64,000 nt of DNA from an uncultured Ruminococcus sp. (GTDB taxonomy: Bacteria > Bacillota > Clostridia > Oscillospirales > Ruminococcaceae). Position numbers and translations under genes: made by a program. The stretch lies in NCBI GenBank assembly GCA_902780505.1, contig CACZFN010000002.1:149044-213043 (forward strand), read 5' to 3'. The notes under the pieces were generated by a model. The model was not told the DNA's origin. It searched no databases and saw nothing but the letters and a program-made list of their open reading frames with translations. This document shows positions 1,585 to 43,427 of the stretch, piece by piece. Within the stretch, counting starts at the first letter, position 1; every line of letters starts with the position of its first letter.

Positions 1585-1623
1585 AGTTTTGGCGATAATA
1601 TTATGAACAGAAAGGAAATACAT

Positions 1624-2940
1624 ATGCTTATTAAAAAGACACTTGCTTATTTATGCGCATCTGCAATAATGCTTACAAGCATACCCTCTGCCTTTGCCGA
1701 GGAAAAACTCAACCAGTTCAAGCCGACTGATGACAATGTAAAGCTTATAGGGCGCACATACTATTACAACAACGAAGAACTATGGTTCGGCCTGACAGAT
1801 TCGGGCATATCCTTTGACTTTACAGGCAAATACGCCGAAATGAACCTTATGGGCGACAGCGGGGCGTTCGGCGAGGAAAACGGCGCACGCATAAAAGTAT
1901 ACGCTGACGGCAAGGAAGTATATGACAAATGCCTGACCGAGTACCCGTTTGAAACTATAAAGGTGGAATTTGACAGCGAAGGCGAGCATACAGTAAAACT
2001 CCTCAAAGTTTCGGAATGTGCAAATAACACCGTACTGCTTGAAAACATTTTTGTTGACGGCGACAGCATAAAGCCATCGGGCAGCGGCTCACATACGATA
2101 GAATTTGTCGGCGACTCCATAACCTGCGGCTACGGCGTTGACGCCGAAAGCCAGAACGAGCACTTCCTGACATCTACCGAGGACGGAACAAAAACATACG
2201 CATATAAGACCGCACAGCATTTCAATGCAGACTATTCTATGGTAAGCTACAGCGGCTGCGGGGCAGTATCAGGCTACACAAACGAAAGCAAGCCAAACAC
2301 CTTGAATCTTATGAAGGATTTCTATGAGCTTGTGGGACATTCCTTTGCAAACTACAGCGGTACGAGCATTGACAGCCTTTCGTGGGATTTCAAGCAGCAG
2401 CCAGAACTTATCGTTGTGAACTTAGGCACAAATGATGCTTCATATACCAAAGGCAATGCTGAAAGAATTGATGAATTCAAGTCAGCCTATACAGATCTTT
2501 TAAAGCAGATAAGGAGTAAAAACCCCGATGCAGAGCTTCTTTGCATACTTGGGCTTATGGGGCAGGATCTTTACCCCGCCATCGAAGAAGCTGTTGAAAG
2601 CTATAAGACTGACACAGGTGACAGCAAGATAAACACCTTTATGCTTGATCCGATAGACTCAGCCAATGAAGGCTACGGCGCTGACTACCACCCGAAGGAG
2701 GCAAGCCACGAGCGTGCCGCAGAAGCACTTATCGGCAGGATCGAAGAACTCTACGGTTGGACAGACCATGATCCCGCTATGGTTCAGTCTGTTAAGGCCT
2801 CGGAAAGTGCAGATTCATCTTCATCGTCTGAGAGCGAAAAAAGCTCAGGTATGCTTTCCACTGTACTTATCTGTGCAGGCGGTGTGTGCCTTGCGGCGGC
2901 TGTTGTAATGATAGTGGTAAAGAAAAAGAAAAAAGCATAA
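1624..2940 (+). CDS. membrane-anchored SGNH/GDSL esterase, carbohydrate esterase family 2-like
   Basis: A secreted carbohydrate esterase, probably removing acetyl groups from plant polysaccharide. The start is placed at ATG 1624, seven nt after AGAAAGGA; an ATG 21 nt upstream would put that ribosome site inside the gene. Residues 1-26 form a signal peptide ending at AFA. Residues ~30-150 look like the jelly-roll module of CE2 enzymes. The SGNH part has the nucleophile block FVGDSITCGYG (~160), the GTND block (~267) and the catalytic DYHP block (~353). A Ser-rich linker leads to a C-terminal membrane helix (~409-434) and a run of lysines, so the enzyme is tethered to the cell rather than released. 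The exact substrate is inferred. Confidence 0.85.
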   Translation: MLIKKTLAYLCASAIMLTSIPSAFAEEKLNQFKPTDDNVKLIGRTYYYNNEELWFGLTDSGISFDFTGKYAEMNLMGDSGAFGEENGARIKVYADGKEVYDKCLTEYPFETIKVEFDSEGEHTVKLLKVSECANNTVLLENIFVDGDSIKPSGSGSHTIEFVGDSITCGYGVDAESQNEHFLTSTEDGTKTYAYKTAQHFNADYSMVSYSGCGAVSGYTNESKPNTLNLMKDFYELVGHSFANYSGTSIDSLSWDFKQQPELIVVNLGTNDASYTKGNAERIDEFKSAYTDLLKQIRSKNPDAELLCILGLMGQDLYPAIEEAVESYKTDTGDSKINTFMLDPIDSANEGYGADYHPKEASHERAAEALIGRIEELYGWTDHDPAMVQSVKASESADSSSSSESEKSSGMLSTVLICAGGVCLAAAVVMIVVKKKKKA

Positions 2941-2946
2941 GATCAT

Positions 2947-3146
2947 TCCCGTCTGATGTTATCAGGCGGGACAGCTTGTCGCAAAACTATGTTTTTGTGA
3001 TACGCGCAAAACGAACTGAAAACTCAAAGGCTGTCCACGCCCTATTTTTGGGGGCTTTCCGATCGCCCCCAAACCCCTTCGGATATGCATTCACCCCAAA
3101 AGACTACTTTATCAACAGACTGTCCCGTCTGATGTTATCAGGCGGG
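2947..3146. repeat. intergenic element (copy A) flanked by a perfectly duplicated terminator hairpin
   Basis: The hairpin at 2947-2970 (arms CCCGTCTGAT/ATCAGGCGGG) recurs base for base at 3123-3146. Only the right copy keeps a T-run. The 152 bp between them (2971-3122) match, in reverse orientation, the segment at 40016-40166: GCTTGTCGCAAAA at 2974-2986, a palindromic core at 3045-3091 (GGGGGC/GCCCCC), and CTTTATCAACA at 3107-3117. No protein-coding frame is convincing. It looks like a small mobile element that duplicated the terminator on insertion. Confidence 0.8.
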
Positions 3147-3154
3147 TTTTTTTT
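3123..3154 (+). terminator. rho-independent terminator after the esterase (right copy)
   Basis: Stem CCCGTCTGAT/ATCAGGCGGG followed by eight T residues; the functional copy of the duplicated hairpin. Confidence 0.8.
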
Positions 3155-3225: not shown

Positions 3226-4071
3226 ATGACACCTTATGAAAAGCTTACGCATTGCTATGAACAGGTAAGGGCAAGAACGGATCTTGTGCCGCAGATAGCA
3301 CTTGTGCTCGGCTCAGGACTCGGCGATTATGCAAACGGCATAAAGCAGGAATGTGTGATAGACTACAGTGAGATAGACGGCTTCCCCATGTCTACTGTTG
3401 AGGGGCACAAGGGCAGGTTCGTTTTCGGGTATGTTGATGAAGTGCCCGTTGTTATAATGCAGGGGCGTGTTCATTATTACGAGGGGTATGATATAAAGGA
3501 CGTTGTACTGCCTGCAAGGCTTATGGGTATGCTCGGTGCAAAGGTACTTTTTCTGACAAATGCTTCGGGCGGTATAAACAAGGCTTTTCACGCAGGTGAT
3601 TTTATGATAGTTACCGACCATATCGCTTCATTTGTGCCAAACCCGCTTATCGGGAAAAACATAGATGAACTCGGCACACGCTTCCCGGATATGTCAGAGG
3701 TATATAACAAACGCCTTGTGAATATAATCAGAGAAACAGCCGAAGATGACGGCATAAAGGTACAAAGCGGCGTTTATCTTCAGCTGACGGGGCCTTCATT
3801 TGAAACACCTGCCGAGATAAGAATGGCACGCACACTCGGCGCAGATGCCGTAGGTATGAGCACAGCTGTGGAAGCGATAGCCGCAAACCATATGGGGCTT
3901 AAAGTTTGTGCGATATCCTGCGTGTGCAATCTTGCTGCGGGTATGAATGAAACACCGCTTACCCACGCTGAGGTACAGGAAGCCGCCGACAGGGCAGCAC
4001 CGCTTTTTAAAATGCTTATAACACATTCGATAGAGAATATTTCCGACGAACTGCTGACAAAAGGGATATGA
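3226..4071 (+). CDS. punA: purine nucleoside phosphorylase (trimeric PNP family)
   Basis: Phosphorolysis of purine (deoxy)nucleosides to base and (deoxy)ribose 1-phosphate in the cytoplasm (salvage). The 281-residue length fits the low-molecular-mass, inosine/guanosine-preferring family. Visible blocks are the phosphate loop LVLGSGLGDYA (~27), EGHKGRFVFG, GRVHYYEGYD, NASGGINKAFHAGDFM, LTGPSFETPAEIRM and GADAVGMSTAVEAIAA. AGAGGAGG lies 8 nt before the ATG. It heads an operon with an amidohydrolase likely to act on a related nucleoside, which supports a purine salvage role. Confidence 0.93.
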   Translation: MTPYEKLTHCYEQVRARTDLVPQIALVLGSGLGDYANGIKQECVIDYSEIDGFPMSTVEGHKGRFVFGYVDEVPVVIMQGRVHYYEGYDIKDVVLPARLMGMLGAKVLFLTNASGGINKAFHAGDFMIVTDHIASFVPNPLIGKNIDELGTRFPDMSEVYNKRLVNIIRETAEDDGIKVQSGVYLQLTGPSFETPAEIRMARTLGADAVGMSTAVEAIAANHMGLKVCAISCVCNLAAGMNETPLTHAEVQEAADRAAPLFKMLITHSIENISDELLTKGI

Positions 4072-39167: not shown

Positions 39168-39200
39168 ATGACGAGATCTAAAAAAGGAGTGTTTAAGAAA

Positions 39201-39926
39201 ATGCACAGTAACAGAAGTATGATCCGAATGATAAGCCTTTTCGGTTCTGCCGCAGTAATAGCCTGCATGAGCGTTGTAGCTTCATATGCACTTAATGCAA
39301 AGGACAGCGGAAAAGTAGTTTCAGCAGAAAATACAACTGTAAACAGCATACAATCCCTTGAAGCGCTTAAAGAGGGCGCAGTAAACGAAAACTACATTTC
39401 ACTTGTCGGCGGCATTATCAGCAGCGGCACAGACAGCAGTTTAAAAACAGCTTTTGACGAAGCAGAAAAAGCGCAGAAGGAAGCTGAAGAAAAGAAGAAG
39501 GCAGAAGAAAAGAAAAAAGCCGAGGAAAAGAAAAAGGCTGAGGAAAAAAAGAAAGCTGAAGAAGAAGCCGCAAAGCTTTATGTAAACCCCACAGTAAATT
39601 CAAACTGGGATCAAAGCGGGCACCTGAACACATTTTCAGGAATATACTACGGCCCATCGGGCAAGGAAACCTACTACAACCTTGATATGTCAGGCGTTAT
39701 AAGCATAATGCGCGGCATGGGGTATTCCGATGACAGCTATCCCTACTGGGTAAGGGACGACGGCTGCAAGATGTTCGGTGATTACATAATGGTTGCCTGC
39801 AATCTTGATCTGAGGCCGCGCGGAACTCTCGTGGAAACATCGCTCGGCATGGGCATTGTATGTGACACAAGCCCTGTATTCGTAGGCGACAGTGCAACAC
39901 AGGTAGATGTTGCGGTAAACTGGTAA
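39201..39926 (+). CDS. secreted wall protein with EEKKKA repeats and a 3D (double-psi beta-barrel) domain
   Basis: A ~241-residue secreted protein. N-terminal signal anchor (ISLFGSAAVIACMSVVASYALNA), a charged helical stalk with about five EEKKKA repeats (~95-125), and a C-terminal 3D-type domain (~165-241) with GDYIMVACNLDLRPRGTLVETS and GMGIVCDTS, related to lytic transglycosylase/resuscitation-promoting barrels. It probably acts on or spans peptidoglycan. The start is placed at ATG 39201 after AAGGAG; the frame is open to ATG 39168, which has a weaker ribosome site. Confidence 0.78.
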   Translation: MHSNRSMIRMISLFGSAAVIACMSVVASYALNAKDSGKVVSAENTTVNSIQSLEALKEGAVNENYISLVGGIISSGTDSSLKTAFDEAEKAQKEAEEKKKAEEKKKAEEKKKAEEKKKAEEEAAKLYVNPTVNSNWDQSGHLNTFSGIYYGPSGKETYYNLDMSGVISIMRGMGYSDDSYPYWVRDDGCKMFGDYIMVACNLDLRPRGTLVETSLGMGIVCDTSPVFVGDSATQVDVAVNW

Positions 39927-39985: not shown

Positions 39986-40196
39986 AAATACGGCAGGGAG
40001 ATCATTCCCTGCCGTCACAGAATGTTGATAAAGCATGGACTTTCTGGAAATGCATTTCCGAAGGGGTTTGGGGGCGACCGAAAAGCCCCCAAAATAAAGC
40101 GCGTGACAAGTTCTGTTTCCGGATATATCTTTAATCATTATAAAGCAACCGGGTTTTGCGACAAGCAAATACGGCAGGGAGAACATTCCCTGCCGT
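39986..40196. repeat. intergenic element (copy B) flanked by a duplicated terminator hairpin
   Basis: The hairpin at 39986-40015 recurs at 40167-40196 with one change in the loop (GATCATT versus GAACATT). The 151 bp between them (40016-40166) match copy A at 2971-3122 in opposite orientation: TGTTGATAAAG (40023-40033), the core 40049-40094 with GGGGGC/GCCCCC arms, and TTTTGCGACAAGC (40154-40166). The flanking hairpins differ from those at copy A, so each pair comes from its own target site. It sits between the 3D-domain gene and carB. Confidence 0.8.
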
Positions 40197-40202
40197 TATT
40201 TT

Positions 40203-43200
40203 TTATTCTGTTATGTCTGCATGGTGTGCCTGCAGGGATTTTACGCCGAAGTGGGTGTTTAGCTTTATAGCCTTTATACCCTCTGCGCTTGCCTTTGCAG
40301 CAGCCATTGTGGTAATATAAGGCACGCGGTGCTTTATCGCGGCTTTTCTGATATAGCTGTCATCATGCACGCTTGTCTTGCCTGCGGGGGTATTGATAAT
40401 TAGCTGGATCTCGCCGTTTGCTATCTCGTCTGCGATATTCGGCCTGCCCTCATATATCTTATAGATCTTCTTTACAGGTATGCCCGCCTGCTTTATCATT
40501 TCATAGCTCTTACCTGTTGCGATTATCTTAAAGCCGAGTTCGTTGAACGCATTTGCGATATCGAGCAGCTCGGGCTTGTCCCTGTCATTTACAGAAAGGA
40601 GAACTGTACCCTCCTGCGGGAGTCTTGTCTGGGTAGCCTCCTGCGCCTTATAGTAGGCTTCGCCAAAGCTCGGCGAAATACCAAGGACCTCACCCGTAGA
40701 GCGCATCTCAGGCCCGAGTACAGGATCGACCTCCTGGAACATATTGAACGGGAACACGGCTTCCTTAACACCGTAGTGGCCTATCTTCTTGTCCTTGAGC
40801 GCCGGAACAGGGCTCGGTCTGCCTGTAAGGGGCGCTGTGATTATCTCGGTAGCTATCTTTACCATGTTTATATCGCACACCTTTGAAACAAGCGGAACTG
40901 TCCTTGATGCACGCGGGTTAGCTTCAAGCACATATACAGTATCGCCCTCGATAGCATACTGCATATTCATAAGCCCCATAACGTTCATCTCTACTGCTAT
41001 CTTTCTTGTATATTCCTTTATCGTTTCAACTGTCTTTGCAGAAAGGTTCTTTGAAGGAAGTATGCAGGCAGAGTCACCCGAATGAACACCTGCAAGCTCG
41101 ATATGTTCCATTACTGTCGGCACAAAACAGTTTGTGCCGTCGGATATGGCATCTGCTTCACACTCTGTAGCGTGGTTAAGGAAGCGGTCTATAAGTATAG
41201 GTCTGTCAGGTGTGACACCTACAGCCGCAGACATATAAACACGCATCATATCGTCATCATGCACGATCTCCATGCCCCTGCCGCCGAGCACGTAGGAAGG
41301 TCGAACCATTACAGGGTAGCCAATCTTATTGGCTATCTCAAGTGCTTCATCGACATTTACAGCCATACCAGATTCCGGCATAGGTATGCCGAGCTTATCC
41401 ATCATAGCGCGGAAATGATCCCTGTCTTCTGCAAGGTCGATAGTTTCGGGGGTGGTCCCCAGGATATTAACGCCATACTTTTTAAGGTCATTTGCAAGGT
41501 TAAGGGGTGTCTGTCCGCCGAACTGTGCTATTACCCCGACAGGCTTTTCCTTATCGTGGATAGAGAGCACATCTTCAAGTGTAAGCGGCTCAAAATAGAG
41601 CTTATCGGAGGTATCATAGTCGGTAGAAACCGTTTCGGGGTTACAGTTGACTATAATAGATTCAAATCCAAGCTTTTTAAGTGCAAGTGCCGCATGAACA
41701 CAGCAATAGTCAAATTCGATACCCTGACCTATCCTGTTAGGGCCGCCGCCGAGTATCATTATCTTAGGCTTTTCCGTATTGCAGGGACTCTTGTCTTCGT
41801 CAAGGTGATAGGTGGAGTAATAGTAAGCCGCATTCTTTGTACCGCTTACATGAATGCCCTCCCACGCTTCCTTTATACCGAAGCCGAGTCTTGCGTTTCT
41901 TATCTCCTCCTCTGTCACTTCAAGCAGAGAGCTTAAATACCTGTCCGAGAAACCGTCAAGCTTTGCCTGTCTTAAAGCACTTTCCGCCGGCACAGCACCC
42001 TTGTTCCTGAGGAGTGCCTCCTCCTCATCAACAAGTTCTTTCATCTGTGTGAGGAAGTAGTGCTTTATCTTTGTAAGTTCCCATATCTCGTCGATCGTTG
42101 CGCCCTTTCTGAGTGCTTCATATATAATGAACTGTCTTTCGCTTGTCGGGAAGCGAAGCTTATCGAGCAGTTCTTCCTTTGTAAGCGAATTGAAATTCTT
42201 AGCAAAGCCAAGGCCGTATCTGCCTGTTTCAAGTGACCTTATAGCTTTCTGGAAAGCTTCCTTATAGGTCTTGCCGATACTCATGACCTCGCCGACAGCA
42301 CGCATCTGTGTGCCGAGCTTATCCTCAGCACCCTTGAATTTTTCAAACGCCCACCTTGCAAACTTGATGACAACATAGTCACCGTCGGGGACATACTTGT
42401 CAAGTGTGCCATACTTGCCGCAGGGTATCTCGTCAAGGGTAAGCCCACAGGCGAGCATTGCCGAAACAAGCGCTATCGGGAAGCCTGTAGCCTTTGAAGC
42501 AAGTGCCGATGAACGTGAGGTACGGGGGTTTATCTCGATAACGACTATCCTGCCTGTTTCTGGATCACGCGCAAACTGGCAGTTGCAGCCGCCGATAACT
42601 TCTATCGACTCGATTATCCTGTAGGACATATCCTGAAGTTCCTTCTGAACATCTTCAGGGATAGTGAGCATAGGCGCAGAGCAGAAGCTGTCACCCGTAT
42701 GAACGCCTATCGGATCAATATTCTCTATAAAGCAAACTGTTATTTTATTATTATTGGCATCTCTTACCACTTCAAGTTCAAGTTCTTCCCAGCCGAAGAT
42801 ACATTCTTCAACAAGCACCTGCCCAACAAGCGATGCCTGAAGTCCCCTTGCACATACTACCTTCAGTTCGTCAACGTTATAGACCATACCGCCGCCTGCG
42901 CCGCCCATAGTATAAGCAGGACGAAGCACAACAGGGTATTTGAGTTCTTCGGCGATCTTTACAGCTTCATCAACGCTGTAAGCGACTTCGCTCTTAGGCA
43001 TACCTATGCCGAGGTCCTTCATAGCGTTCTTGAATTCTATCCTGTCCTCGCCGCGCTCGATAGCGTCAACCTGAACACCTATTACTTTTACGCCGTACTT
43101 TTTGAGAACGCCCGCCTTATCAAGTTCGGAGCAGAGGTTAAGGCCCGACTGCCCGCCGAGGTTAGGCAAAAGTGCATCAGGGCGCTCCTTATCAATTATC

Positions 43201-43427
43201 TGCGTGAGCCTGTCAAGGTTAAGCGGCTCGATATATGTTATATCAGCCACATCCGGATCCGTCATGATAGTAGCGGGGTTTGAGTTTACAAGGACTATCT
43301 CATAGCCTAAGCTTCTCAGAGCCTTGCACGCCTGTGTACCCGAATAGTCAAACTCACACGCCTGACCGATTATGATAGGCCCCGAGCCTATTATCATTAT
43401 CTTATTGATATCCTGTTTCTTTGGCAT
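40203..43427 (-). CDS. carB: carbamoyl-phosphate synthase large subunit
   Basis: Makes carbamoyl phosphate from bicarbonate, ATP and ammonia (passed on from the CarA glutaminase) for pyrimidine and arginine synthesis. 1074 residues, full length. Two ATP-grasp halves are visible: PKKQDINKIMIIGSGPIIIG at the start, VVLRPAYTMGGAGGGMVYN, IEINPRTSRSSALASKATGFPIA, then IMILGGGPNRIGQGIEFDYC, VMVRPSYVLGGRGMEIV and VLEANPRASRTVPLVSK. The last ~140 residues form the allosteric MGS-like domain (LLSVNDRDKPELLDIANAF). carA is not adjacent in this window, so it must lie elsewhere. Confidence 0.96.
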   Translation of the reverse strand: MPKKQDINKIMIIGSGPIIIGQACEFDYSGTQACKALRSLGYEIVLVNSNPATIMTDPDVADITYIEPLNLDRLTQIIDKERPDALLPNLGGQSGLNLCSELDKAGVLKKYGVKVIGVQVDAIERGEDRIEFKNAMKDLGIGMPKSEVAYSVDEAVKIAEELKYPVVLRPAYTMGGAGGGMVYNVDELKVVCARGLQASLVGQVLVEECIFGWEELELEVVRDANNNKITVCFIENIDPIGVHTGDSFCSAPMLTIPEDVQKELQDMSYRIIESIEVIGGCNCQFARDPETGRIVVIEINPRTSRSSALASKATGFPIALVSAMLACGLTLDEIPCGKYGTLDKYVPDGDYVVIKFARWAFEKFKGAEDKLGTQMRAVGEVMSIGKTYKEAFQKAIRSLETGRYGLGFAKNFNSLTKEELLDKLRFPTSERQFIIYEALRKGATIDEIWELTKIKHYFLTQMKELVDEEEALLRNKGAVPAESALRQAKLDGFSDRYLSSLLEVTEEEIRNARLGFGIKEAWEGIHVSGTKNAAYYYSTYHLDEDKSPCNTEKPKIMILGGGPNRIGQGIEFDYCCVHAALALKKLGFESIIVNCNPETVSTDYDTSDKLYFEPLTLEDVLSIHDKEKPVGVIAQFGGQTPLNLANDLKKYGVNILGTTPETIDLAEDRDHFRAMMDKLGIPMPESGMAVNVDEALEIANKIGYPVMVRPSYVLGGRGMEIVHDDDMMRVYMSAAVGVTPDRPILIDRFLNHATECEADAISDGTNCFVPTVMEHIELAGVHSGDSACILPSKNLSAKTVETIKEYTRKIAVEMNVMGLMNMQYAIEGDTVYVLEANPRASRTVPLVSKVCDINMVKIATEIITAPLTGRPSPVPALKDKKIGHYGVKEAVFPFNMFQEVDPVLGPEMRSTGEVLGISPSFGEAYYKAQEATQTRLPQEGTVLLSVNDRDKPELLDIANAFNELGFKIIATGKSYEMIKQAGIPVKKIYKIYEGRPNIADEIANGEIQLIINTPAGKTSVHDDSYIRKAAIKHRVPYITTMAAAKASAEGIKAIKLNTHFGVKSLQAHHADITE

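Follow-up and report, generated by a model that had tools for sequence, protein, structure and literature searches.

A duplicated terminator hairpin at two sites

How did a short non-coding segment come to lie between two identical copies of a terminator hairpin? At site A of the window, which is the whole 64,000-nucleotide stretch of DNA analysed here, the 24-bp hairpin TCCCGTCTGATGTTATCAGGCGGG is present twice without a mismatch, with 152 bp between the two copies, and a T-run is found on the outer side of the right hairpin alone. Both points had been made in the first-pass annotation, whose coordinates for copies A and B were also correct. The features of the two sites are listed in Table 1. 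Copy B repeats the architecture of copy A on the opposite strand; its two hairpins differ by one base and, as had been claimed, are unrelated to those of copy A. The inner segments of A and B had been described as matching in reverse orientation. This holds for part of their length: BLAST aligned 82 nt of the 152 at 82% identity and the ends match as well, but the left-middle part of copy B comes from another subfamily.

Table 1. Features of sites A and B in the window
Feature	Position	Strand	Remarks
Gene reading into site A	1603..2940	+	NCBIfam: sole match AxeC2-type esterase, far under the cut-off
Left duplicated terminator hairpin of copy A	2947..2970	+	No T-run behind it
Copy A element	2972..3122	+	151 bp, non-coding, CAGCTTGTCGCAAAAC ... 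TTTATCAACAGACTG
Right duplicated terminator hairpin of copy A	3123..3146	+
T-run	3147..3154	+	Adjoins the right hairpin of copy A only
Purine-nucleoside phosphorylase gene, after site A	3226..4071	+	NCBIfam
Open frame converging on site B	39168..39926	+	No NCBIfam match
Copy B duplicated hairpin, low-coordinate side	39990..40015	-	26 nt
Copy B element	40018..40168	-	151 bp, another subfamily, same ends as copy A
Copy B duplicated hairpin closest to carB	40171..40196	-	26 nt
carB (carbamoyl-phosphate synthase large subunit)	40203..43427	-	NCBIfam; its terminator holds copy B

The element family

A BLAST search of the source genome with positions 2971-3122 gave 31 matches, including at least 20 two-ended copies. 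The other matches are four partial or composite copies (L008, L020, L021 and L028) and a remaining seven: five core-only matches within other repeats (L022-L025 and L029), L030, which is the second piece of L012, and one partial neighbour of L008. The figure of 20 is a minimum; with another copy as the query, 39 matches were obtained in the same genome. Eighteen of the two-ended copies are about 150 or 168 bp long, those of about 168 bp having an additional inner palindrome within the core. The other two are shorter: L017 (132 bp), scored as two-ended despite a deletion of about 20 bp that removes the left TGTCG motif, and L018 (116 bp), which has an internal deletion.

The element ends GCTTGTCGCAAAAC and GCTTTATCAACAG are conserved, while the subfamilies diverge in the left-middle part. 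The ends read CAG..CTG, and the inverted ends CAGCTTGTCGCAAAAC and CAGTCTGTTGATAAAG are imperfect, with 10 of 16 positions common to both (counted by eye). The family is therefore short, non-coding and multi-copy with (imperfect) terminal inverted repeats, as is usual for MITEs; what it does not have is a characteristic duplication length, the duplication being found in 19 of 21 copies and ranging over 19-36 nt as set by the hairpin. The reading of the family as small, non-coding, MITE-like mobile elements is well supported. RNAalifold predicted 10 pairs for the element, with a covariation term of -0.01. Concerning other species, G003 contains one clean copy and G005 one decayed copy. The exact two-end pattern was positive in two of the 396 genomes of the family, namely the source genome (G000) and G003, and is strict, as it recovers only 6 of the 20 source-genome copies and diverged copies escape it.

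The element core (GGGGGCTTTCCGGTCGCCCCC..CCCTTCGG) is also found with different surroundings in other repeats of the genus (L034, L040, L181:6400-6510 and others), some of which have GATAAATTGGAATTT-like ends. At L074:1290-1600 two consecutive elements occupy one terminator, which suggests that they inserted one after the other and that an arm of a hairpin was deleted later.

Flanking hairpins

The hairpin sequence varies from locus to locus, but in 18 of the 20 two-ended copies of the source genome, and in 19 of 21 when the G003 copy is included, each flank is a copy of the same local terminator hairpin. The flank-pair set consists of these 21 copies; L074 and the truncated L028 were left out. 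When left flanks were aligned with right flanks, 19 of the 21 true pairs outscored the maximum of 420 mismatched pairings. In view of this and of the 31 genome matches, neither the matches nor the pairing of the flanks can be attributed to chance. The exceptions among the 21 are L013, which has two different hairpins, and L018, which has a hairpin at one side only. Of the copies that are not two-ended, L020 and L028 are truncated and possess a hairpin solely at the surviving end, and in L021:1286-1556 two elements are combined so that both sides are right ends; this composite has a direct repeat of 7 bp and lacks a strong hairpin. The prediction of many copies, each flanked on both sides by the same local terminator, is thus borne out in this genome. 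The proposal that the element targets terminators and copies the whole hairpin is likewise supported, with a wider size range (19-36 nt across 19 copies) than the 24-30 bp first suggested.

Duplicated hairpins were also searched for independently of the element, in the window and 40 further stretches of the source genome (848,759 bases); these were chosen partly for contigs holding copies and are not a random sample. Within a distance of 6 kb, 37 pairs were found. Ten have a spacer of 140-180 bp, and nine of these ten contain the element. Of the 12 matched copies that these stretches contain, the scan found nine and missed L003, L017 and L027, the last of which was detected by a stricter scan. 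Two other arrangements were seen. At L181:6534-7263 a segment with a 173-aa ORF has on both sides a roughly 40-bp direct repeat, which includes a terminator hairpin and lies beside a gene that we take by eye to be tRNA-Tyr. At L182:1638-2391 a pair of small ORFs, presumably hicAB-like, lies between two similar terminator hairpins.

Duplication length and hairpin length

Duplication length follows hairpin length with a slope of 1.09 +/- 0.09 (r 0.95, n=19, range 19-36 nt); the duplication length is the mean of both sides, hairpins were called from each flank separately, and the positions of the hairpin feet and of the duplication ends have an uncertainty of 1-3 nt each. Without six copies in which the stem had changed, the loop had an indel or the hairpin call was doubtful, the slope is 1.02 (r 0.93, n=13). 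The summed gaps between element and hairpin feet are independent of hairpin size (slope -0.07 +/- 0.10), whereas a fixed stagger predicts a slope of -1. Decay of the outer flanks cannot yield the observed relation, because the inner junctions alone mark the ends of the duplication. The junctions keep an almost constant spacing from the hairpin feet, so large and small hairpins alike are matched by their duplications; sequence comparison thereby shows that the hairpin is duplicated as a whole. A characteristic length of the target duplication is one of the features by which transposases are classified, and a family in which it matches the entire target hairpin, from 19 to 36 nt, would imply that the stagger can be set by the structure of the target.

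Stem and loop are wholly identical in 12 of the 19 matched pairs. Summed over the pairs, 8 of 394 stem nt and 11 of 84 loop nt are different between the two hairpins. As stems differ less than loops, they appear to have been maintained after insertion, which suggests selection on the hairpin stems.

Empty sites in relatives

The 3' end of carB was readable in four of the six relatives searched (G001, G002, G003 and G006); G004 gave no match and G005 a distant paralogue only. In all four, a single, unduplicated terminator hairpin lies close behind the carB stop codon, and the element is absent from the stretch read. These hairpins were folded for G001 and G006 and assessed by eye for G002 and G003. 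The reciprocal site gives the same picture: the source-genome orthologue of the gene adjoining the G003 copy (91% protein identity) is followed by one such hairpin and no element. The sequence upstream of site A is not alike in the relatives read; in G005 one terminator is found ahead of the phosphorylase gene. An empty site with one terminator had been expected in related strains. It is present in all four relatives readable at carB, but these are other species (69-77% DNA identity at the one gene compared) rather than strains, and their terminators correspond by place, not by sequence.

Neighbouring genes

All 20 two-ended copies of the source genome have a long open frame, as distinct from a curated gene call, running into the site from one side or both. 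A T-run tends to trail the right hairpin and an A-run to precede the left one. The T count of the eight positions is 4.37 on the outer and 3.42 on the inner side (Wilcoxon p 0.014), and the corresponding counts for the A-run are 4.95 and 3.00 (p 0.002); the T enrichment is modest, and the inner values are largely set by the element's own ends. Transcription would be expected to continue beyond the first hairpin, through the element, and to end at the second hairpin. Given the position of the two runs, a gene on either side could still terminate at the far hairpin, with a 3' UTR longer by about 180 nt, so insertion should be well tolerated. This suggests a route by which the element could insert beside many genes and keep a working terminator for either direction.

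Mechanism and alternative explanations

On the sequence evidence, the element is probably non-autonomous and depends for its insertion on an enzyme acting in trans, which joins DNA at the two feet of a terminator hairpin. Such an enzyme would recognise the hairpin or cruciform form of the terminator, the two element ends would be joined to opposite strands, one per hairpin foot, and filling of the single-stranded gaps would copy the hairpin. The more specific version, a structure-measuring integrase that carries out strand transfer at the two feet and reads the size of the duplication from the secondary structure of its target, is a serious candidate to which we give slightly less than an even chance.

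The trans-acting partner is putative; no enzyme with matching ends was found. An end-pattern search of the source genome, a 51-contig draft in which a collapsed IS could be missing, gave no long element sharing these ends. The matches in the source genome and the genus, including the regions behind promising ones, are element copies, a short remnant (L101) and matches judged to be due to chance. One end-pattern scan of viral contigs gave no match and another gave 22, none with the element's neighbouring sequence. A scan of genome contigs, whose coverage may not extend to the source genome and its near relatives, gave seven matches, judged from record titles to be due to chance. The enzyme families rve, Y1_Tnp, Cas1 and DDE_Tnp_1 were tested in seven genomes of the genus. 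Cas1 was found in none of the seven (58-99% complete), and the source genome gave no match to DDE_Tnp_1 and one rve (PF00665) match, IS21-like judging by its two-ORF layout. Contig C24 starts inside an IS21-like gene pair, behind which no matching end was seen. Two multi-copy IS of G001 were rejected, as their ends differ. Separately, a 1.33-kb rve-type IS of G001 (loci L090, L092 and L093) lies, in three of the six copies compared by eye, apparently inside a terminator hairpin, in its loop, so that it separates the two arms.

The same duplications could come from a DDE transposase of the conventional type whose stagger is long and fixed, as in the IS1202 group, and which merely prefers terminators. 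The 24-29 bp duplication class given for that group in the accessible text of PMC10045372 is near the mean here, while the TG..CA ends of the member named there differ from CAG..CTG. We consider this explanation unlikely: a fixed stagger fits neither the spread of the duplications nor the foot-gap slope, and the sole rve match in the source genome looks IS21-like.

Less likely still is single-strand mobilisation via hairpins by an HUH enzyme (IS200/IS605 or RAYT-like), the duplication then arising from replication or repair. Recognising hairpins at a set distance from the foot is a property of HUH enzymes, and the source genome contains one Y1_Tnp gene. However, IS200/IS605 insertion is not known to produce a target duplication, whereas 19 of 21 copies here have one, and Y1_Tnp is present too in G001, G004 and G006, where the exact two-end pattern detects no copy. 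It is very improbable that there was no insertion and that the two hairpins instead arose around an old element, through terminators evolving independently, through slippage or through recombination. The two different hairpins of L013 and the lower divergence of stems than of loops would suit such an origin, but the locus-specific identity of 19 of the 21 pairs, most of them without any stem or loop difference, and the single hairpin in relatives argue against it.

Comparison with known systems

Group IIC introns resemble the element family in that they insert at intrinsic terminators; they are ribozymes with a reverse transcriptase and are not known to duplicate the hairpin. At the gathering threshold, Rfam gave no group IIC intron in the window and no match of any kind on copies A and B, and the element is too short to contain the gene for such a reverse transcriptase. 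Spacer integration by Cas1-Cas2 works in a similar way: both ends of a palindromic unit are attacked and gap filling duplicates the unit. CRISPR integration is array-specific with a fixed repeat, and Cas1 was not found in the genus genomes tested.

Among the titles and abstract openings searched, in literature mostly outside subscription journals, there was no description of hairpin-length duplications at terminators. As described in the accessible text of PMC6382973, MITEAba12 is likewise small, non-coding and multi-copy, with inverted ends and a target duplication, and is moved in trans; its duplications are 9 bp and its ends are common to the co-resident ISAba12, whereas here the duplication tracks the target hairpin and no partner with shared ends was found in the source assembly. 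The BrickBuilt MITE of Porphyromonas gingivalis is also intergenic and terminator-flanked, with a variable duplication length: predicted terminators and/or polyadenylation sites lie beside 10 of 19 copies, and duplications are of unequal length in three of the four copies having both ends (PMC4596501). In the accessible part of that report, the sole duplication shown is a dinucleotide, the example terminator precedes the element, and a duplicated hairpin is not described. The IS1202 group and its IS481 relatives share long target duplications, including the 24-29 bp class. Their lengths fall into separate classes (5-6, 15-17 and 24-29 bp) and TG..CA ends are stated for one member in the available text (PMC10045372), whereas the family here covers 19-36 nt with CAG..CTG ends; no IS481-like transposase was recognised in the source genome. 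In mobile DNA it is unusual for the length of the duplication to depend on how large the hairpin is.
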